Shown here piece by piece: positions 641 to 57,842 of a stretch of 64,000 nt of DNA (position 1 is the stretch's first letter; the number at the start of each line of letters is the position of its first letter). The stretch comes from Antedon bifida. Taxonomy: Eukaryota > Echinodermata > Crinoidea > Comatulida > Antedonidae. The translations under genes and the position numbers were made by a program. The DNA lies in contig OY727103.1 in the NCBI GenBank assembly GCA_963402885.1, positions 18,936,085 through 19,000,084 on the forward strand, written 5' to 3'. The notes beneath the pieces were generated by a model, which ran no database searches, was not told the origin of the DNA, and saw only the letters and a list, made by a program, of their open reading frames with translations.

Positions 641-1125
641 TGATTTCCTAGTTTACTGGCAGCCATTTTGGATTTTTCCACCATCTTTGCAACGAGTGGC
701 CTATATTATGTACCATGTCTAAAATATGTTTCAATGACCATGATTAGGCCTACTCCATGTTTTCCAACTTCGTTTGATACCTATATGCGATTTCTGCAAC
801 CAGAATGATATTCCAGTTTAGGCTACTGGCAGCCATGTTGGATTTTGGCCACCATTTTAACAACAAATGACCCATGTCATGCAACATGTCTAAAATATGT
901 TTCAATGACCATGAATACTTATGTTTTGATAGTTCATTTGCCTATATGTGACTTCTGCAACAAATGAAATGTGATTTTCCAATTTATTGGCGGCCATTTT
1001 GGATTTTGGCCGCCATCTTGAAAAATAAATTACGACCAGAGTGGCTCCTAGGCAAAAATCAATTGGTAGGTCCCAACGAAGCTCCATGCCAAATTTGGCG
1101 CTTTTGTCCACCGTGTAACGATTTT
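640..1125. repeat. Three degenerate tandem units with a GGCNGCCATTTTGGA core
   Basis: The core GGCAGCCATTTTGGA appears near 659, 829 (one change) and 990 (GGCGGCC form), so the unit is about 160-170 bp. Between cores, phrases such as 'ATGTCTAAAATATG' and 'TTCAATGACCATGA' recur, which confirms duplication rather than chance. The third unit continues into a different unique-looking tail. The core contains the GCCAT word bound by YY1-type zinc fingers in animals; whether that matters here is unknown. A related core recurs near 22830-23110. Confidence 0.6.
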
Positions 1126-1412
1126 CTCATTTTTTGTTGTTAAGCCACCTGACTATTAATGAGTACTGTATTACTATATACAGTAATGTTTTCATATTTT
1201 ATTTAAAGTATACATTACTATTTTACTGAAGTGAACCAATACGGAGTGTTTATTATTAACAAACAGGATTTTATTGCCATTATTTTTCCTTTATCATTTC
1301 CCTTTGTACTTTCTATTATCTAGATGGCTGTTGAAAAAAATACCATTTCATTATTGTTCTACACAAAGAATGTACTGTACATTATTAATATTAATATCGT
1401 TATTAAGATTTT

Positions 1413-2456
1413 GTGTTGTTTCGAATCGGGATCGTTGGAATAATCATGAGCTCTGTACTGTATACCTTACTCTTGTTTATTTTTCTATGTGTTGCTTTCA
1501 AGAAAACGGATAGTGTTATTATAAAAGGGACTGTACGCATAGAAGTGTTTGACAAATGTCCTCAACATGTTGGTGATTATATTGAAAATTTCTGTTTTGA
1601 CAACAACAAACAATTTTCTGATCCTGTACAACCTGTAGGAAAGAATTTTACATTTGTATTGAGAACAGCAAGTTTTCTTATCCGAATGAAAGGAGTTATG
1701 TGTGAAGAGTGCATTGAAATTATTGCTAATAGTTTACTTGTCTTAAAATGTGAATTGACAAACAACATGTGCTTATACACAGCTTTAGATAAATTTGTAG
1801 AAAGTGTAATGGAGGAATATTTTGGAGGAAAAGGATTTCATTCATGCTTTCCAAAAGAGTTAAATAGTACCATAAATATTGGTAATTCCTTTTGTGAAAA
1901 TGATGTACCAGGGCTTATGGAAATTATGAAACGCGAACCAGAATGTGAAAATCAAACTAAAGACTTGATAGTAATGCTTCTTGCTGTTGCTCTTGTCGTT
2001 TGTTTCGTCTTTTTTACAATTGCAATTTGTGGAATTTATAAACGCGGTCAAAGAATGATGGTGGAGCTTCAAAAGGACACGCAGCATAGATCTCGACTTC
2101 AGTTAAGTTCATCAGTATCAACAGTGAACATGAATCCTGTAAGAGATGGTACTCCAGAAGGGTCTGATGTAGAAGATGGCGATGACACCATACCAGATGT
2201 TGTTAACCCACTGTCTCGCAAACCGACAAACTTCCCAATGGTGGAAAATCCTTTGAACAGAGGAAATCGAAATACTTCACTTGACAGCGGAGGTTATGCT
2301 GTTCCCGATATGGTCAATGAAGCGCATCTTTACACCGACCTTACAAAACGGGATACTTTAATTGAGGATAATGAAGGTTATGTTTTACCAGATCAACAGT
2401 TCCAACTAAAAGATACTGTAAATGACTACTTAACTGTTTATACACCAGAATGTTAA
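1413..2456 (+). CDS. Single-pass membrane protein, tandem-family copy 1
   Basis: Unrecognised 347-residue protein from one uninterrupted exon. The likely start is the Met at residue 12 (MSSVL), which opens a hydrophobic signal peptide and sits in the block IGIIMSSVL shared with copy 2; the first Met is the ORF limit only. The ectodomain (about 32-184) has about ten cysteines, N-glycosylation sequons (for example NFT near 78 and NST near 151) and a family block MKGVMCEEC near 92. One transmembrane helix lies at about 185-207, followed by a basic stop-transfer. The cytoplasmic tail is acidic, with a conserved block NPLSRKPTNFPMVENPLN (264-282) and tyrosines in short motifs: YAVP 295, YTDL 307, YVLP 323, YLTV 339. 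These look like SH2-docking or ITIM/ITAM-like sites, but no spacing rule is met exactly. A receptor or adaptor role is inference. The upstream DNA is also conserved with copy 2, so the copies arose by DNA duplication. Confidence 0.75.
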   Translation: MLFRIGIVGIIMSSVLYTLLLFIFLCVAFKKTDSVIIKGTVRIEVFDKCPQHVGDYIENFCFDNNKQFSDPVQPVGKNFTFVLRTASFLIRMKGVMCEECIEIIANSLLVLKCELTNNMCLYTALDKFVESVMEEYFGGKGFHSCFPKELNSTINIGNSFCENDVPGLMEIMKREPECENQTKDLIVMLLAVALVVCFVFFTIAICGIYKRGQRMMVELQKDTQHRSRLQLSSSVSTVNMNPVRDGTPEGSDVEDGDDTIPDVVNPLSRKPTNFPMVENPLNRGNRNTSLDSGGYAVPDMVNEAHLYTDLTKRDTLIEDNEGYVLPDQQFQLKDTVNDYLTVYTPEC

Positions 2457-2865
2457 GCATATTGTGTTTATGATAATTAACTTGAAATCTGAGCAATAAG
2501 CAGGATCGACAGAATAATAGTAGACCAAAAAAATATGGAGAACCGCATTTAGGATGGACAACATGAGATTGATATTGAGTGTTTTTCAAGTTGTAATGTA
2601 GGTTCCAAAAGAGTGATTCAGTTTAATATTGGTAAAAAGATAAACATTTGGCACACATGACATGTCATACTAAACTTGAGTTTGAATCACCATCTTTGTC
2701 ACCATGTTTTGTCACCAAGAACTTTAAGGCATAATTATCCGGTTGATTAGTTTTAGTCTCATGTGATTGGCTACTCCCTCAAAATGTTATGTATTTGGAT
2801 ACTTTGGAAAAAAAGATTTAATCTTCAATCGTTAATTCTGTATTTTATCTAATATATCAGGAAAA

Positions 2866-3010
2866 ACTATATTCGGAGAGAGAGGGCTCACTACTTGATA
2901 TTTCGGCTCATGTTAAAATAATACAGAGGGTGTGCTATTTAATATTCCAGGATCATATTATTGAAGATCACCAATATATCAATTTTTCTGAAAATCAATA
3001 GCCATGTTTT
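2866..3010. repeat. Dispersed repeat, copy A
   Basis: The phrases 'GAGGGCTCACTACTTGATAT' and 'ACAGAGGGTGTGCTATTTAA' recur at 43538-43730 inside HSPA14, with the same order and spacing. Family not identified. The remainder of 2457-3730 shows no gene. Confidence 0.65.
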
Positions 3011-3734
3011 GTACTTTTGTGCAAACTAACAAACAAAGCAAGAACTACATTTTTGCAAAGTAATAAAATGTACATATTGGGTAAGAATAATAACTAGAAC
3101 TGCACTGATTTGTTATTGTTGATTAAACTTTAGGTCATGTGAACGAGTAAATCAGGAGAGGTGGAAGAAGCTCAGTAGAGAGTGGATCACCTGACGACAG
3201 GTATTCTGCCACTCAGAGTTGAATTTTATTTTTTTCCTTCATCTTATTTAATTTTTCTTAGATACTCTTACATATAGTTACAAAGCTCAATATTGTATGT
3301 AAACAAAAACAAATCTTAATAGCAATTTTGTCTTTTTATTTAGTTTCATGTTGCGAGGCGGCTATGAGAGATTTGTACTTCTTTTTACTTGTTTTTGAAG
3401 CAGTTTTCTTTAAGGAGATATGTTTCTCAACCTCTAAACTAAATTTCATTCTGTGAAAAAATAGTCTGGTCTCTTTTGTTCACCTTGCAGTTAAATACTG
3501 TATGTATTGTTTACAATATAGAATAAACAAATTTACTGGTAAAAACAAGACAAGACCAGAGTAATCAAATGATGACTACTTTTTTGTCAGGGTGCATATT
3601 CTTGTTGTGTTCCACAGTGAGCAGGCAGAATGCAGGACGCAAGTCTAGGCCTGTGTCACGCTGTCTAAAATTGTTCAACTCCCTGTCCAATTGTATTGCT
3701 GCCTTCTAAAATGGTTTTGGCCTCATTAATAGTG

Positions 3735-3885
3735 GGTGTGTTATAAAACAAATAATGAATGTCAGATATTTGTGCAATGGGACAAATAATTTCATGAGAT
3801 GAAAGATGAAATATTTTAACTTGTAAATATGACTTATAATCTTTCATCTTATGAAATTATTTGCCCCATTGCACTCATAAACATT
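3735..3885. repeat. Foldback element (inverted repeat centred near 3815)
   Basis: The left arm (CAAATAATGAATG..., GCAATGGGACAAATAATTTC, GATGAAAGAT) is mirrored by the right arm (ATCTTTCATCTTATGAAATT, GCACTCATAAACATT, ATTATTTG). The arms are about 60 nt with a short centre. The same ATAATGAATGTTTATGAG terminus recurs at 39260, 39480-39600, 41430 and 49500, so this is a member of a dispersed short inverted-repeat family. Confidence 0.65.
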
Positions 3886-4041
3886 TATTATTTGTATAAT
3901 AGCTCCGCTTCGTGAATAAAAATACTGAAATGAGAGCGTATCAGTTTGATCTCTGGTGCATATGCATACAATTAAGGGACTTAAGTGCTGTTCCGTCGTA
4001 CTGTGTAGAGAGTGTCCAATCGGATTTGAATAATACAATGA

Positions 4042-4120
4042 AAGTCCCAGTGGTCTAATGGTTAGGACATCTGCATATATCAAGCAGAAGGTTCTGGGTT
4101 TCGAAACTCGATTGGAGTGA
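4042..4120 (+). mobile_element. tRNA-derived SINE head
   Basis: A box-like TGGTCTAATGGTTAGG and a B box-like GGGTTTCGAAACTCG are about 35 nt apart, as in tRNA-derived SINEs. The B box has an extra base and the anticodon stem pairs poorly, so this is not a functional tRNA gene. The sequence runs on into non-tRNA DNA. Confidence 0.6.
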
Positions 4121-4522
4121 CTTTTTCTCATTCTCACAGATTTTCTCATATTATCGTTTCAAATTAATTAATACACTTTCAGTATATCACCGGGCGGTTT
4201 AGAATTTGTTCTATGCCTGTGGTGTTTATAATATCTCCTTTTAATGATCTTTATAGAGTTCTGAAAACTATTGAATGACATTTTGTTCTTGCGTTTATCA
4301 TACATGTTGTGGTGTTTTAATGAGAAACAACACAAAGTGTTTATTGTACAAAAAGGATTTTATTGTTTATATTTTTCTTTTATCATTTCCTTTTATATTT
4401 GCATACTTTACACATATTGGATGCCTGTTGGCAAAAAATACCATTTAGTTCTTGTTCTGCATAAAGAACTGACCAAATTACACGGACATAATTATTATTA
4501 TTGATATTGTTAATAATACTTT

Positions 4523-5482
4523 ATGTTGTTGGGAATTGTGAACATTGGAATAATCATGAGCTCTGTACTGTTGATCTTACTGTTTTTGTTGTGTGGTAAT
4601 TTCCAGAAAACGGATAGTATTGTTATAGGAGGAGATGTACGCATTAAAGGTTCTTGTCCTGGTATTAATCATACTTTAACTGATTTTTGCTTTGATAATT
4701 ATACACCACTTTCTGAACCAGTCGAAGTAATGGAATTTACAAGTTCAATTAAAACAGAACACTCTACCGTCATTATGAAAGGAATTATGTGTAGAGACTG
4801 CATTGAAATGATTACTGAAAATCTGATCATCTTAAAATGCATGTTAGCAACGAACAATGTATGTGTGTATGTAAACGAATTTGTACTCGGTGTTATGGAC
4901 AAATATTTTGAAAAAAAGGGTTTTTATCCGTGTAATCGGAAGAAATTCAATAGTATCAACAATACTGATTCTGTATGTTGGAATCATTCCAGCATACAGA
5001 ATGACATAACAGAAGGTGCAAACAAAGACATGACTGTGTCCCTTCTGATTGCTAGTCTTATAGCTTGTATTGTGTTTTTGACGATTGTAATTTGGTGTGT
5101 TTATAATCATTATAAACGAAAGATGGTAGAACTTGAAAAAGACATGCAGAATAGATCTCAACTTCAGCCAGGACTTTCAATATCAACAGTGAATCCTGTA
5201 AGAGATTATTCTTTGGAAGATTCTGATGATATGTATGCTGATGTGTATGATGGTTCTGATGACATCACCATGCCAGATGTTGTTGATCCACAGTCTCGCA
5301 AACCAATTAACTTCCCAATGATGCAAAATCCTTTGAACACAGAGAATCAAACATCTTTAGTTGTTGAAAGCAACGACACGCATCAGATCACTGGTTCCTC
5401 CAACCAGATTGAAATCAGTGAAGATGGCTATTGTAAGCCAAATGTAACAGATCTGGTAAAAAGATATTCCACAGATTATTAA
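4523..5482 (+). CDS. Single-pass membrane protein, tandem-family copy 2
   Basis: Unrecognised 319-residue intronless paralogue of the protein at 1413-2456. The likely start is the Met at residue 12 (MSSVL), giving a signal peptide. The ectodomain holds FCFDN, MKGIMCRDC and several N-X-S/T sites; the transmembrane helix is at about 171-194, followed by a basic segment ending in KRKMVELEKDM, very close to copy 1. The tail keeps the PDVVDPQSRKPINFPM block and tyrosines in acidic contexts (MYADVY, DGYCKP, RYSTDY), but only partly the same motifs as copy 1. The 5' flank (from about 4330) aligns by eye with the flanks of copies 1 and 3 (for example AGGATTTTATTG and the AAATACCATTT phrase). Function unknown; membrane receptor or adaptor is inference. 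Confidence 0.75.
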   Translation: MLLGIVNIGIIMSSVLLILLFLLCGNFQKTDSIVIGGDVRIKGSCPGINHTLTDFCFDNYTPLSEPVEVMEFTSSIKTEHSTVIMKGIMCRDCIEMITENLIILKCMLATNNVCVYVNEFVLGVMDKYFEKKGFYPCNRKKFNSINNTDSVCWNHSSIQNDITEGANKDMTVSLLIASLIACIVFLTIVIWCVYNHYKRKMVELEKDMQNRSQLQPGLSISTVNPVRDYSLEDSDDMYADVYDGSDDITMPDVVDPQSRKPINFPMMQNPLNTENQTSLVVESNDTHQITGSSNQIEISEDGYCKPNVTDLVKRYSTDY

Positions 5483-6740
5483 GTTTAATAAAATATGATA
5501 ACTTTAATTATCTAATCTAATATGTTATATAATTAGAAAATGGAATTAGACAATATTGGTAGAATAAAAAACGACAGATAGAGAAGATACAATATGAAGT
5601 GTGAAGGGATGGAATTGAGATACACTGTCGAGGAAATTTAGTTATAAGATGTTTATAAAAATATAATATGATATATTCTTCTATTAACAGTTAATGTGGT
5701 TGAAAATTAGATAAAATTATGTTAGTAAATTTTGTTTGTTGCAAATATAAATTTATCATCTAACGATCAATGTATGTTCATAAAAAAGGTTAAAAAAGGA
5801 CCAACATGAAATAGGTGCTCAGGGTGCTTGATTGTTCAAAATTATACTAGTATTGCATGCAATTTGTAGTATAGCGTATTATGCTGACCATTAGTGGATG
5901 TATAATAGTTCCACCCATACAGGACAGACCATCTAGTACATATTTGTCATGAAACACATTGATGATATCAATATTTATTAATATTGTAGAATTACTGTTT
6001 TATACTTTTATAGTAATGTAATAGATATAGTAAATAGTGTAATGTGAGATCCAATATTTATTTACTGCATCAGGATTTTTAAACTGAAAAAGAAATTACT
6101 GCACTATATTTTCAAGCTGTTTTAAGCCCACTAAATAGGCTAATTTCTAATTTTTAAATGCACATCCACATAGTATTATTGACCACTGATTGTTTTAACA
6201 TTTTTTCACCTGATCTGACATTTACTGAAAGACTTGATAGCAATATTTATAAACCTAATTTAATAGTCCCATAATAATTGTAAATGTTCAATTCAATCTG
6301 GTGAAAATAAATTATTTATACTTGTTTATAATTATATTCTGACTGTTTTTATACTTTTATTGTTTTTATAGCTTTTTGCTTCTTTTATTTAGTATCTCCA
6401 TTGAGATTCAGCCACTGATACCCACAGCAATGTCATTTTAACCATTGTTTTGAAAAAATTAATGTTTCTGGTATTTCGATATAATATTTAACTCATGGTT
6501 ATTTGTTTGCAGAAAATTGTTGAATGTATATATAGATATACGTGATGAACTTTAAAGCATGTTTTCTTTAATTATGTGTACTACTACTACTACTACTACT
6601 GTAAATCAAGTGTTACAGTACATAAAATTACTATATAAATGGATACAGCAAAAAGCAAATTTTGTACAAAATGCATCAATGACATCATTGAGGACCATTA
6701 TTGTCGTTTGCGTGTGTACAACTGTAAACATACTAGGTTC
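5483..6740. other. Intergenic, no gene seen
   Basis: AT-rich spacer between family copies. It holds one short (ACT)n run at about 6578-6600. No exon or clear mobile element was recognised. Confidence 0.5.
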
Positions 6741-6936
6741 TGGTGTTTTACTAAGAACAATTCACTTGTCACATCATCACCATTATTTTTCCTTTCATCA
6801 TTTCCTTTTGTGGGAGGTGCTTAAACCATAGAGGTAAAATTCATTCATGCTTACGCATACTTTGATAGCTATTGGTAAAAATACTTTTTCGTTCTACAAT
6901 CCACTCATCATTCAGTGTTGTGTTGTTATAATAAAT

Positions 6937-7620
6937 ATGAGCTCTGAAATGGTTATCTTGCTGTTTTTTCTTTTGAATTTGTAAATTTCAGAACAATATA
7001 GTATACAAGGAAGTACGGTATGCATAGAATGCCCTCATCATGTTGAACATTTTTGTTTTGACAATAAAAATAAACTGTTGTTTTTTGATATAGAACCATG
7101 TTTAAAACATCACATTATTCATTATTTATAAAGCGCCTTTCCAGAAGATCAAAGCGCTGTACAGAGAAAATTATCAGAAACCACATCCAAAAAAATTAAA
7201 TAACAATATGCATGGCTGCAGTCGCGTGCGGAAATGTTAGTTAGTGTTTACCGACTGTCCAACCGACCGCTATAGTGAGCTGTAGAGTAAAAATGCTAGT
7301 TAGGGAACAGATACGTTTTTAGTTGTTTCTTAAAAAGACGAGAACTAGGATCCTGTCGGATATCCAAAGGGATGATGTTCAATCTGAATGAATGGTATTA
7401 TGTTATGTTAACTTCAGCCAGGTTTTTTTTATATCAACTGTAAACATGAATCCTGAAAGAGATGATGTAGAAAGTTCTAATGATGACATCACCATGCTAG
7501 ATGTTAACCCACTGTCTCGCAAACCGACAAACATCCCAATGGTGGAAAATCCATTGAACAGAGGGAATTGACATGCATCATTTGATAGTGATGGTTACAT
7601 CAATATGGTAAAATAAATAT
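6937..7620 (+). pseudogene. Broken copy of the membrane-protein family
   Basis: The start context ATGAGCTCTG and hydrophobic leader match copies 1 and 2, but an in-frame TAA at 6982 ends it after 15 codons. Ectodomain-like sequence (FCFDN region) continues to about 7110. It is then replaced by an unrelated dispersed repeat (about 7118-7405), and the tail block resumes at 7410 (PLSRKPTNIPMVENPLNRGN) before another stop at about 7569. The transmembrane segment and much of the ectodomain are gone. Upstream DNA from about 6742 still resembles the other family promoters. Confidence 0.8.
7118..7405 (+). mobile_element. Short dispersed element with TATAAAGCGC/AAGCGCTGTACA core, inside pseudogene
   Basis: The motif ATTTATAAAGCGCCTTTCC followed by CAAAGCGCTGTACA, then a moderately conserved body, resembles the elements at 31597-31790 and (reverse orientation) 16012-16085. 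It interrupts the decayed family copy. It is SINE-like or a non-autonomous element; family not identified. Confidence 0.55.
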
Positions 7621-7721
7621 TTAGCGTAATGATTATGTTACAATAGAGGAAAATAAAATTATCATCCTGTTGGTGCAGTACCCGCTGCTTTTGCATTTGA
7701 ATCTAACCCTATCCTTCAGCG

Positions 7722-7792
7722 CAAACTTGGTGGTCTAGAAGTATGAATGCCAGGCTAGTGATCTGGAGGTTGTGGGTTCAATTTTTTTTTTT
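7722..7792 (+). mobile_element. tRNA-like (SINE-type) relic
   Basis: A TGGTCTAGAAGTATGAATG A-box region, a paired anticodon-like arm CCAGGCTAGTGATCTGG and a B-box GGTTGTGGGTTCAATT are in tRNA order. The sequence then collapses into a long T run, so the acceptor arm is missing. I read it as a truncated tRNA-derived SINE, not a tRNA gene. Confidence 0.5.
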
Positions 7793-8699
7793 TTATGTAT
7801 TGCCAACGATAACAATAAGCGAATTCATTCACTATCCTTCTTAAAGGTGGCAGTCCCATCCACAAGACAAACATATACACAAGATGCTCTACATAAACAA
7901 AGTCTATTACAAGTCTTTGGGAGTGGAGTAATTTATCATTTGTCATTAGAAAAAAATCCTAACTTATGACATGTCCCTTCAAAGCAAAATAACGGTCATT
8001 TGATTGACAGCCAGACCTTTAGTCAACTCCACTGCAGTAAGGTTTGAATTGACCGCCAGAGCCTGCATTTTGGGTAATGCTAACGATTTCCATCGACAAC
8101 CAACGGTTATTTAGGAGCAACAATTTAGCAGAAATGCAGTCAATATGAAAATCTTATTTTAAATATGGCGCTATGCAAAAGAAACAGACAATCTATAAAA
8201 GAAAAGAGCCACTATAATTTTCAAAATAGGATGGATTGTGGAAGTTATAAATAAAACATTGAATTACTAGGTCTACTGTTTTGTTTTTAGAAGCTAAACC
8301 ACAATTCATGTGTTTCCTGGAAGCCAATCCTGGTTGTTTATTCCACAAAACAGGATTTTATTGCCATTATTGTCTTTTAATGTTTCCTTTTATCTTAATA
8401 TTGCCTAAAATACAATTCTATATTTGTTCTGTTCTATATTATATGTTGTCATCATACACACATGATTATTATTGTATCGCCAAGAATATTTTGTGCTGTT
8501 TATATTGACTTCTGACCCACTCTGGAGCTCAGTAACCTCTATGTGGTTATTTTAGTACAGTTTAAAGTGGCAATTTCCAAAAAGCATTTTTCAAATTTCT
8601 TGGCAGCACTACAGAAACAGGACAACTTTTCAGTAACCAGTCAATTGCAGCCTGGAAATAATGGTTAAAACGTAGAACGTCATTTAACCAGTTATTACT

Positions 8700-9443
8700 G
8701 TGCAAAGCAAAATCTTTGTAATAAATTGTCTTCATCATAGACAAATTTTGCGTTTAAAAATCCAGATGAAAGGATTTATGTGTGACAACTGCAGTGAAAT
8801 TATTGATTTCATTGTGAAATGTAACGCCACATGTTTGCAGACTGATTTGAATGATTTCATAGGAAGCGTAAAGGACAAATATTTGAATGAAAATGGATTT
8901 AAATCGTATTCCTGTGATGCAGAATTTGAAAATCAAACTAAAAACTTAATAATATTGCTTCTTACTGTAGCTCTTGTAGTTTGCGTTGTCTTTTTTACAA
9001 TTGCAATTTGTAGAATGGATAAACGTGGTCGACGAATGATGGTAGAGCTTAATAAAGACATGCAGCATAGATCTCGACTTCAACCAGGTTTGTCAATATT
9101 AACAGTAAACATGGATTGTAAAAAAGATGACGTTTCAAATGAGGAAAATTTTGATGACATCACCATGCCAGATGTTAACCCACTGTCTCGCAAACCGACG
9201 AACTTCCCAATGGTGGAAAATCCATTGAACAGAGGGAATCGACGTGCATCATTTGATAGTGATGGTTACACCAATCCTGTTAAAGTAAATGAAATACATC
9301 TGTACACTGGCTTAAAAAAACACGTTAGTACATCAAGTAGTGAAGATGATGAGGGCTATTTGCTGCTCAATCAACATTTCACATTAAAAGAAACAGTAAA
9401 CGACTATCTAAATCTAAATCCAATAAGAGAGAGTGAAGCTTAG
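8700..9443 (+). CDS. Membrane-protein family copy 3, N-terminally altered
   Basis: A 247-residue ORF related to copies 1 and 2. It keeps MKGFMCDNC (23-31), a shortened cysteine-containing ectodomain, a transmembrane helix at about 82-104 nearly identical in character to copy 1, the PLSRKPTNFPMVENPLNRGN tail block, and tyrosines YTNP, YTGL, YLLL and YLNL. There is no signal peptide: the stretch near 8520 that aligns with the family start has GGAGCTCAGTAAC where copies 1 and 2 have ATGAGCTCTG. Either an upstream exon supplies a new leader, or this is an early pseudogene with an intact 3' half. The Met at 8700 is only the ORF limit. Confidence 0.5.
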   Translation: MQSKIFVINCLHHRQILRLKIQMKGFMCDNCSEIIDFIVKCNATCLQTDLNDFIGSVKDKYLNENGFKSYSCDAEFENQTKNLIILLLTVALVVCVVFFTIAICRMDKRGRRMMVELNKDMQHRSRLQPGLSILTVNMDCKKDDVSNEENFDDITMPDVNPLSRKPTNFPMVENPLNRGNRRASFDSDGYTNPVKVNEIHLYTGLKKHVSTSSSEDDEGYLLLNQHFTLKETVNDYLNLNPIRESEA

Positions 9444-10158
9444 TGAAGTTAAACCCAGACAATTACTCTCGTAAGTAGACCTCCCAAAGCTTTTTTGCAT
9501 TTCTCTATGACCAAAAAGATCTGGAAAACTGATTAAAATTTAACAATCAACATTAAACCATTTTTTCCTATATTTTGCCACGTTTTTAACCGGAAACTGG
9601 TTATTAAATTATGACTCATTGTTCTATTTACTTAATGGTAAGATGCCAAGGTTAAAATGATGTGTGTTACTATTAAACATAATTAAATGTGGTTTTATAT
9701 AATATGCTAAATTGTCAGTATGTTTTAAAATAGTGGAGTGTTTTGGAGTAGATTTTAGGTAACCAAAATTAGGTAGCATAGGGTCGCACTCCACCCTTTT
9801 GACAGAAAAAAGGAAGCATGTTGACCATGTTGCACACAAAAATAGCATCCATTGGGCTCTCGAGGGAGTTGGGGAAAGAGCCCAGCGAAGCTTTCCCTAA
9901 CAAATATAATTATTTTATATATTATTATAAAAGTCTATTATTAGCAGAATGCTTTGATCCAAACCTTCTTTCCAAAACTTATTTCAATTTTTTTTTTGCT
10001 TGGGACTGTGCCTTTTTTCACAGCCAATATTGATTTATCTTGTTTTTTTTTTCAATTGTTTGTTAATAATGTTAAAATAAAAATATGAAAAATTAAATTT
10101 TTCTGAATTTTTGGAAGAATATTAAATTTGATATTGAATTGAAATTTGTTTTTGCAGA
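9444..10158. other. Intergenic or intronic, no gene seen
   Basis: AT-rich DNA with no recognised exon. It ends in a T-rich tract and a good acceptor (TTTGTTTTTGCAG) at 10158, the 3' splice site of the next feature. Confidence 0.5.
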
Positions 10159-11092
10159 TAAAGATGCCTCTCTTGAATACGACACTTTATTTGGAGATCA
10201 AAAAAGAAAAAAGAGAAAATCAGGTATGAAAAATAATGAGGTAACTAGGGCAGATACCAGTGTCGATGCTAACCAATGTGACCATGACAGCATAGATGGC
10301 GCTATATCAGAAACTGGCTCAGATAAAGTCATAAAGTATGGATGGCAACATTTTAATAATAGTTTAGATGTTTTGAACGCAGAGATGGAGAATGAAAAGT
10401 ATGATTCGGATTTAGAGGCAGATATGGGAGGTGATAAAGATATTGCTTGTAGATATGACGAGCAGGTACAATATAATATTGGTATAAAAAGTGACAACAA
10501 AACTCAGCAAAGAAAAGAACCTGACTTCACTAACAAGGTTTCAGATTGGCTACAATATTTGCCATCAACTAATGAAAATAAAACCGCCAATCTTGAAAAT
10601 AAATCTGATTTGTTTAAAAATATCATGGATAACACCACTGTGATTTCTGAAGGTAAAGAAATCCTTATTAAACATGAAATCCTCCCAAAAAAATTAACAA
10701 TGACATTGGGGAGTGGAGATACTGATATCCAGGGTGAGAGTGAAAAAACTGAGGAATATTCTGTACCAGATAATCTTATAAAACCAAATTCAGCTGATAA
10801 TAAACATGAAAATCTACCTGAAGTACAAGATAATACAACTCTTACCTGTACCAAAAGGCATGTGTCTCATCTCCCTCATGTTTTATCACCAAAAGTTTCT
10901 GAAGATGTAATTATTTCGGACGATGATTCAACTTATGTGTCTGGTGGTCGACTGTCGCAGGGAAACTCTGATATTCCAGGAACACCAGACTCAAAACAGA
11001 TGATATTCTCCAATAGCAGCTCAAGTCAAAGTAATAAGTTAGGTGCGTCCAAAGTGTATAAGATGATTAATAGAAGAAATATTAATTTTTAA
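10159..11092 (+). CDS. Long terminal exon of an unrecognised gene (possible Artemis/DCLRE1C tail)
   Basis: An open frame of about 310 codons follows the acceptor TTTGTTTTTGCAG; no good ATG precedes it, so it is read as a last exon rather than a whole gene. The protein is hydrophilic, rich in Asp, Glu, Asn and Ser, with a basic patch DQKRKKRKSG near the start and a Ser-rich end (SDIPGTPDSK, SNSSSSQSN), ending NRRNINF. It looks like a disordered nuclear tail with no folded domain visible. By sequence alone I cannot name it. Position and strand relative to SUV39H and HSPA14 fit DCLRE1C, whose human last exon also encodes a long disordered tail, but no catalytic exon is visible upstream in the window. 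Confidence 0.6.
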
Positions 11093-57188: not shown

Positions 57189-57842
57189 TTAAACAATAAT
57201 AGTAGAAACAAGGTATTCATGTAGTTTGAACTTAAATGAAGATATAAAATTAATAATTTTAATTTCATCTGGTAAAGAATTCCAAATTTTTGGTCCTTGA
57301 AAAGTTATATCATGCTTGCCAACCTCCGTATTAAAACAATCATAAGCATAATCAAATTTATTTCTGGTATTATAATTATGAACTGAACTAAAAGTTTGAA
57401 AATAAGTATCAAAAATTCTGGGCAGTTGATTATGTTTGAATTTAAACATAAATAAAGCAACATTTTTTGTAAGTAAGTCGTAAATATTAAGTGTATTAGA
57501 TAAGACAAAAAGAGGAGCAGAATGGTGGAGGTAATGAACATTATAAACTGATCTTAAAGCTCTTTTTTGCAAAATATAAATACGGTTTAAATTAATTTTT
57601 GAAGTAAAACCCCAAACGGTTATACCATAAATTAAATGTGGCAAAAAAAGTGATTTATAAATTAATAGTAAAACGGAGGAAGGCAAGGCATGTTTAAGTT
57701 TATTGAGGACACCGACCACTCTCGATAGTTTTAATGAAATTGTATTAATATGAGAAATAAAAGATAAGTATTCGTCAATAAAAATGCCAAGAAATGTTGT
57801 TGCTTTAGTTCTTTCAATTTCGCTGATGCCGTAAATGTATTG
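57189..57842 (-). mobile_element. 5'-truncated LINE, ORF2 C-terminal part
   Basis: The minus strand is open for about 215 codons from YIYGISEIERTKATTFLGIF (about 57842) through LPSSVLLLIYKSLFLPHLIY, GITVWGFTSK, LQKRALRSVYNVHYLHH, HNYNTRN and FQGPKIWNSLPDEIK to a stop at 57189. This is the thumb and C-terminal region of Jockey/CR1-type reverse transcriptases. The catalytic FADD part is missing. The long open frame suggests fairly recent insertion. Confidence 0.9.

Follow-up and report, generated by a model that had tools for sequence, protein, structure and literature searches.

A candidate lineage-restricted family of intronless, tyrosine-tailed membrane proteins in the crinoid Antedon bifida

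Four homologous loci, all on the plus strand, occupy positions 1446-9443 of a 64,000-nucleotide stretch of the genome of the crinoid Antedon bifida (the window: contig OY727103.1, here C16, 18936085-19000084; positions are those of the whole window unless a contig is named). What kind of protein do they encode? We tentatively favour the reading that they form a small, lineage-restricted, intronless family of type I membrane proteins, receptor-like in build, which would signal through phosphotyrosine adaptors. The sequences support it in the architecture of the proteins, in constraint on the lineages of two copies (c1 and c4 below) and in a modest motif bias of the tails.

The copies, named c1 (P0001), c2 (P0002), c3 and c4 (P0003), comprise two intact genes, one 5'-truncated copy and one pseudogene (Table 1). 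A preliminary description had proposed four related, intronless loci on one strand, and this stands, introns being judged in the matched coding parts. The start it gave at 1413 was mistaken: that position belongs to a GTG extension, and the first Met lies at 1446. The frame of c2 opens earlier than the Met aligned with the c1 start, with a Met at 4523 that yields 319 residues (P0002). In the pseudogene c3 the middle of the gene is gone, unrelated sequence stands in its place (about 7111-7410), and the tail stretch matched to the family holds one in-frame TGA. Copy c4 lacks the signal peptide and the N-terminal ectodomain, and its 5' part (about 8500-8757) gave no convincing alignment with c1 or c2. 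TCCAG precedes its first Met and raised the idea that c4 might be joined by splicing to an upstream exon; nothing found speaks for or against this. As judged by alignment, the similarity of c1 to c2 (42% identity over 322 residues, E 1e-67) and to c4 (52% over 256 residues, E 2e-75) is far above chance. Searched against the whole genome (315.6 Mb, 27 contigs), c1 matched the four loci only at E up to 0.001, and tblastn with an E limit of 10 and c2 as query returned the four loci and three weak matches (E at least 0.14), these match counts being lower bounds.

Hydrophobic N-termini and transmembrane (TM) segments were called from a simple hydropathy window. Both c1 and c2 begin with a hydrophobic stretch, which in c2 falls below the 1.6 threshold if read from 4556 and exceeds 1.8 if read from 4523. 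One strong TM segment is present in each of c1 (about residues 174-192), c2 and c4. The ectodomains of c1 and c2 carry three N-glycosylation sequons each (residues 67, 140 and 169 in c1) and the motif MKGxMCxxC; cysteines 86, 89, 102, 109 and 134 (c1 numbering) are common to c1, c2 and c4. A tail of about 125-140 residues follows in the intact copies. The architecture previously outlined, a hydrophobic N-terminus, a Cys-rich sequon-bearing ectodomain with MKGxMCxxC, one TM segment and a tail, is thus found in the intact copies, but only two of the four are intact. The conserved tail block, likewise described before, was recovered in c1, c2 and c4; its protein sequence, PLSRKPTNFPMVENPLN, is identical between c1 and c4, and the pseudogene c3 still retains a copy. 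Tail tyrosines of c1 lie at residues 284, 296, 312, 328 and 332. All four tail tyrosines of c4 occupy c1 tyrosine positions, and c2 retains two of those (Y312 and Y328).

Are these sequences under selection? Pairwise dN/dS (w) was calculated by the Nei-Gojobori method with bootstrap 95% intervals, from three copies and no orthologues. For whole pairs w was 0.50 (0.36-0.68) in c1-c2, 0.37 (0.25-0.56) in c1-c4 and 0.66 (0.41-1.00) in c2-c4. Branch counts by parsimony over the 192 codons common to c1, c2 and c4, with P values against neutrality, gave 32 nonsynonymous (N) and 22 synonymous (S) changes on the c1 branch (P 0.004) and N36/S21 on the c4 branch (P 0.02). These counts reveal purifying selection on two of the three lineages, c1 and c4. 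Under simulated neutral substitution of 12.5% (2000 runs), the frames stayed open in 1.35% (c1), 2.25% (c2) and 5.75% (c4) of runs. Some of the copies, at any rate, have the look of genuine genes.

The preliminary description had held that the ectodomains vary more than the TM and tail regions and had seen diversifying pressure behind this. Amino-acid identities agree with the first statement for c1-c4 (ectodomain 0.53 over 57 codons, TM 0.69, tail 0.65); they scarcely do so for c1-c2, the two intact copies (0.43, 0.46 and 0.47), whose most diverged part is the last 61 tail positions (c1 276-336, identity 0.26). Diversifying pressure on the ectodomain is not supported: among c1, c2 and c4 its w is neither above 1 nor clearly above that of the tail. 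In c1-c2, w was 0.37 (0.19-0.64) for the ectodomain, 0.60 for TM and 0.64 (0.36-1.06) for the tail, with 0.76 (0.29-1.54) in the N-terminal and 0.20 in the C-terminal half of the ectodomain. In c1-c4 the values were 0.47 (0.18-1.04), 0.45 and 0.31 (0.18-0.50), with 0.17 (0.08-0.49) at the tail end. No region of either pair had w significantly above 1. Third-position identity between c1 and c4 is 0.75-0.80 from TM to mid-tail versus 0.40-0.45 at the tail end. Because the conservation of the tail block extends in part to silent sites, gene conversion may contribute to it. The longest identical runs are 32 nt in c1-c4 (permutation P 0.022), 25 nt in c2-c4 (0.030) and 17 nt in c1-c2 (0.35).

About 220 bp 5' of the c1 and c2 start codons are 76% identical (220 sites; Kimura two-parameter distance, K80, 0.29, 0.22-0.38). 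From this comparison, the copies arose by tandem DNA duplication, which for c1 and c2 took in this 5' flank. The next 433 aligned sites upstream are 48% identical and the 3' flank 51% over 123 sites; 20 random alignments gave 47 +/- 5%. Beyond the first 220 bp, and 3' of the genes, the aligned flanks are thus near the random level. The 3' flank was dropped as a neutral yardstick since its 51% is hardly better than random alignments. AATAAA occurs at 5487 and 5563, 3' of c2. Upstream of c1, at window positions 654-1033, a unit of about 210 bp occurs as a direct repeat with 76% identity.

Four motif classes were scored around the tail tyrosines: 17 in c1, c2 and c4 together, 22 in the tails of three leucine-rich repeat (LRR) TM loci that lie upstream, outside the window, and 39 in all. 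The family tails hold four YxxP sites in 17 (YAVP, YVLP, YCKP and YTNP; 1.08 expected, P 0.017 uncorrected), two of them in c1 (Y284, YAVP; Y312, YVLP). With the LRR tails added, the count is 9 of 39 (3.41 expected, P 0.0038 uncorrected); proline stands at +3 of tyrosine in 9 of 37 cases, and no other offset between -6 and +7 has it more than 4 times. Yxx[LIVM] occurs in 6 of 17 family sites (3.84 expected, P 0.17) and YxN in 2 of 17 (1.45 expected, P 0.44). The immunoreceptor tyrosine-based inhibition motif (ITIM) has the consensus [SIVL]xYxx[ILV], and the corresponding activation motif (ITAM) YxxL/I-x6-12-YxxL/I. The former matched none of the 17 tail tyrosines of c1, c2 and c4; the latter was found in neither intact copy and once in the truncated c4 (YLLL-x12-YLNL). 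Of the earlier proposal of SH2-docking tyrosines resembling ITIM or ITAM, then, docking remains plausible, with a lean to YxxP, whereas the ITIM/ITAM likeness is not supported.

YxxP is a consensus of the Crk SH2 domain, and its phosphorylated form is bound by a choanoflagellate Crk, according to passages of two papers (PMC2689226, PMC5043372), from which the motif is older than animals. In the favoured reading, the proteins would sit at the cell surface and the ectodomain would bind a ligand. Src-type kinases would phosphorylate the tail tyrosines, after which SH2 adaptors that bind pYxxP, Crk/CrkL-like or others, would dock on those sites. The YxxPhi sites may be used by other SH2 domains or in endocytosis. 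The role would be that of a surface receptor or co-receptor, possibly in immunity.

What speaks against this reading? Correction for the four motif classes lifts the family YxxP P value to about 0.07, and all the motif P values treat paralogues as independent. Taken tail by tail, P is 0.04 (c1), 0.41 (c2) and 0.20 (c4), and the c2 tail has a single YxxP. A passage of PMC2689226 gives the Crk preference as pTyr-Asp-x-Pro; Asp is lacking at +1 in all four family sites. The LRR tails alone yield YxxP at 5 of 22 (P 0.076), and one of them, LRR_C, has none. On the c2 branch plus root, N82/S23 (w about 1.1), constraint is not visible; the tail accounts for most of the N excess (49 of 60 changes), and saturation may conceal silent changes on this branch. 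AlphaFold models of two proteins had confidence values (pLDDT) of 40 and 43, too poor for use. The family was not detected in Anneissia japonica, the only other crinoid known to be represented in the protein database searched.

The preliminary description had recognised no known domain, and searches of Pfam, the PDB and about 5.8 billion proteins agree. No Pfam family scored above cut-off for c1, c2 or c4. For c1 no family was listed at all; sub-threshold matches were confined to c2 and c4, the best, both in c4, being DUF3377 (E 0.027) and SIT (PF15330; E 0.036, 15.0 bits, short of the 27.6-bit gathering cut-off). No immunoglobulin (Ig) family was found by Pfam in c1, c2 or c4 at E up to 5, nor any SH3, FAT-like or SH2 domain in the family. 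Sequence searches of the PDB gave no relative, the sole match being at chance level (E 2), and neither c1 alone nor a three-copy alignment found one among the 5.8 billion proteins at E up to 1. A control search with the neighbouring SUV39H gene placed Anneissia japonica, Acanthaster, Lytechinus and Diadema among the best 120 of 183 matches; the database therefore contains proteins of crinoids and other echinoderms. Because Anneissia japonica is included, the missing homologues carry weight, though not as proof, since the search needs shared 5-residue words and a relative sharing few could escape it. Among the papers listed in searches of open-licence literature, none dealt with this family or with comparable receptors in crinoids. 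The kind of protein is familiar, a single-pass protein with a tyrosine tail; the ectodomain is assigned to no known family.

Two of the three weak c2 matches (E 0.14 and 0.5, over TM and tail) are Ig-like TM frames on contig C12; the third is a frame on contig C15 that by eye resembles the start of a degenerin/ENaC channel. The C12 frames form two tandem arrays (Table 1), related to each other by search. Most have a hydrophobic N-terminus, one TM segment and a tail with 6-31 tyrosines. Among 29 tails with at least five tyrosines, 13 have ITAM-like and 10 ITIM-like motifs; YxxP occurs in 27 of 30 frames. Proline is commonest at +3 in the 29 tails (53 of 330, next 23 of 329), these being paralogues too. 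Of five frames scanned with Pfam, one has Ig domains above the cut-offs, three have sub-threshold Ig matches and one has none. A group of five adjacent genes is repeated some 14 kb further along. These five duplicate pairs served as a control and gave a pooled w of 0.65 (0.50-0.80) in ectodomains versus 0.30 (0.18-0.50) in tails, so the method can detect an ectodomain-over-tail pattern. Amino-acid identity is lower in the ectodomain than in the tail in four of these pairs, the fifth being reversed (0.98 ectodomain, 0.85 tail). The genome thus does hold the pattern first suspected, though the orphan family does not show it clearly, and the C12 arrays fit the description of immune receptors better than the orphan locus does. 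Two C12 frames stood out in other ways. One (L025, C12:25199101-25200504; TM at 47-65, no Ig match) has a tail of some 400 residues with 31 tyrosines and 8 YxxP, apparently built of repeats at a spacing of 111-123 bp, which match the C12 family's YQVP/YQTL stretch. In the tail of the other (L033, C12:24183615-24185531) a tyrosine-motif unit like YIENENEIYVDGNEVDINQ recurs in several copies.

Could the window hold decaying genes instead? Young or decaying orphan genes, duplicated and under weak constraint, with tail tyrosines that are mainly AP-2 (YxxPhi) sorting signals or functionless and a conserved block that owes much to gene conversion, would account for two broken or truncated copies in four, for the w of the c2 branch, for the low silent divergence from TM to mid-tail with its long identical runs in c1-c4 and c2-c4, and for the want of a homologue in the protein database. 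Against it stand the conserved 5' flank and the purifying selection seen on two branches, c1 and c4, as well as at the c1-c4 tail end (w 0.17); we consider this explanation somewhat unlikely. A true family of ITIM/ITAM immunoreceptors whose ectodomain has diversified under pathogen pressure is quite improbable. It would suit the tandem copies with their single TM segment, the tandem LRR neighbours, the YxxL/V contexts of tail tyrosines (YTDL, YTGL, YLTV and YLNL) and the ITAM-spaced pair of c4. It is opposed by the lack of ITIMs, the absence of ITAM spacing from intact copies and the P value of Yxx[LIVM]; moreover, ectodomain w is below 1 and, in c1-c2, below that of the tail, and the genome yields four copies only.

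Descent from the C12 receptors, as a highly diverged branch that has lost a recognisable Ig fold, seems very unlikely to us. The single-frame plan and the tyrosine-rich tails are the same, and a profile comparison (hhalign) of the two families aligned 34 columns at P 0.0023, besides the weak tblastn matches. Yet the hhalign probability was only 12%, Pfam finds no Ig domain, and the tblastn matches sit in TM and tail, which composition alone can align. To the reading of an adaptor-coupled family the LRR neighbours add an extension. Since the adjoining LRR loci are tyrosine-tailed and two of them have YxxP, a single tail code may be common to the neighbourhood beneath differing ectodomains. It is conceivable, but rather unlikely, that unrelated ectodomains (LRR; a new Cys-rich module with MKGxMCxxC) were each fused to tails converging on one pYxxP code and that this makes up a lineage-specific, adaptor-coupled recognition system in intronless genes, parallel to the vertebrate ITAM/ITIM receptors. 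If family and neighbours do share such a code, a crinoid would possess a tyrosine-tail system with an adaptor choice unlike that of those receptors; otherwise the family would still exemplify lineage-restricted membrane proteins without detected relatives.

How do the proteins compare with known systems? Passages of PMC5043372 describe choanoflagellate transmembrane proteins with cytosolic YxxP repeats, and passages of PMC2689226 the substrate domain of p130Cas/BCAR1; both share with the family tyrosines in YxxP, a Crk SH2 motif, and the choanoflagellate proteins share the transmembrane build as well. The tails here have one or two YxxP each, compared with 10 in the choanoflagellate protein tested (PMC5043372) and 15 in p130Cas (PMC2689226), as far as those passages go. 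The family differs from both in having no SH3, FAT-like or SH2 domain by Pfam and no Asp at +1. Like vertebrate ITIM/ITAM receptors and transmembrane adaptors with tyrosine tails such as SIT, it combines a single TM segment with tail tyrosines, but it has no ITIM, no ITAM in intact copies and a SIT score on c4 far under the cut-off. The LRR-TM loci and the C12 arrays resemble it in their intronless frames, one TM segment, tyrosine-rich tails and tandem arrangement; they differ in their LRR or Ig-like ectodomains, and the C12 similarity is weak. The LRR loci were not listed by whole-genome tblastn of the family, and no further homology comparison with them was made. Sea urchin SpTransformer (185/333) is likewise an echinoderm lineage-restricted gene family. 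That family is reported to be unique to euechinoids. SpTransformer proteins are Gly/His-rich, encoded in two exons and not known to have a classical TM segment.

Table 1. Positions of the family members, their conserved parts and other features (window numbering unless a contig is given)
Feature	Position	Strand	Basis or remark
c1 (P0001), intact; type I membrane protein of 336 aa in a single frame	1446..2456	+	open frame, hydropathy
c2, intact; type I membrane protein of 308 aa in a single frame	4556..5482	+	Met aligned with c1 start
c3, pseudogene	about 6937..7613	+	start region degraded, tail match 7431-7613
c4 (P0003), open 225-codon frame, MKGFMC to stop	8766..9443	+	alignment to family
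Conserved tail block of c1, PLSRKPTNFPMVENPLN, residues 255-271	2208..2258	+	family alignment
Tail block of c2, PQSRKPINFPMMQNPLN	5288..5338	+	family alignment
Tail block of c4, PLSRKPTNFPMVENPLN	9180..9230	+	family alignment
Conserved 5' flank of c1, putative promoter/5' untranslated region	1221..1445	+	76% identity to c2 flank
Conserved 5' flank of c2	4315..4555	+	match to c1 flank
5' flank remnant upstream of c4	8324..8396	+	77% to c1 flank, 79% to c2 flank
Long exon, acidic protein	10139-11092	+	after TGCAG acceptor-like site; no Pfam family
LRR_A, 710 aa, 7 tail Tyr	C16:18922724-18924856	same as c1-c4	
LRR_B, split over two frames	C16:18928063-18930184	same as c1-c4	
LRR_C, 540 aa, 6 tail Tyr	C16:18931580-18933202	same as c1-c4	
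Two tandem Ig-like arrays, with 23 and 7 open frames (180 aa or longer)	C12:25182001-25262000 and C12:24172001-24202000		

The three LRR loci and the four copies form one series of seven tandem loci that spans about 23 kb. The LRR tails with YxxP are those of LRR_A and LRR_B, and that of LRR_A holds GEYASPYAQPYSQP, three successive YxxP. Downstream, the window continues with the acidic-protein exon, SUV39H, a probable ING3, recognised by eye (Pfam gave no match for the piece of exon scanned), and a pyridoxal-phosphate enzyme. A minus-strand frame at 57189-57719, without a Pfam match, resembles by eye the end of a long interspersed nuclear element (LINE) reverse-transcriptase protein. The mitochondrial contig, C27 (15,844 bp, 26.9% G+C), and the SUV39H match point independently, and almost with certainty, to a crinoid. 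In COX1 codons of C27 aligned with a consensus, AAA falls on Asn positions in 3 of 4 and ATA on Ile positions in 10 of 14, in keeping with genetic code 9. Its genes, recognised by eye, run cox1-cox2-atp6-cox3-nad3-nad4-nad4L-nad5-cob along one strand, the opposite strand carrying nad6, nad1 and nad2. For a crinoid mitochondrial genome PMC7687491 reports 15,878 bp and 73.7% A+T; it states that a single gene order, nad4L position included, is common to crinoids, and it cites a paper whose title names a unique nad4L rearrangement in this group. SUV39H has Pre-SET and Chromo domains above the Pfam cut-off, and among the best 120 of 183 matches its exon is closest to Anneissia japonica (73%), followed by E-value by Acanthaster planci (52%).

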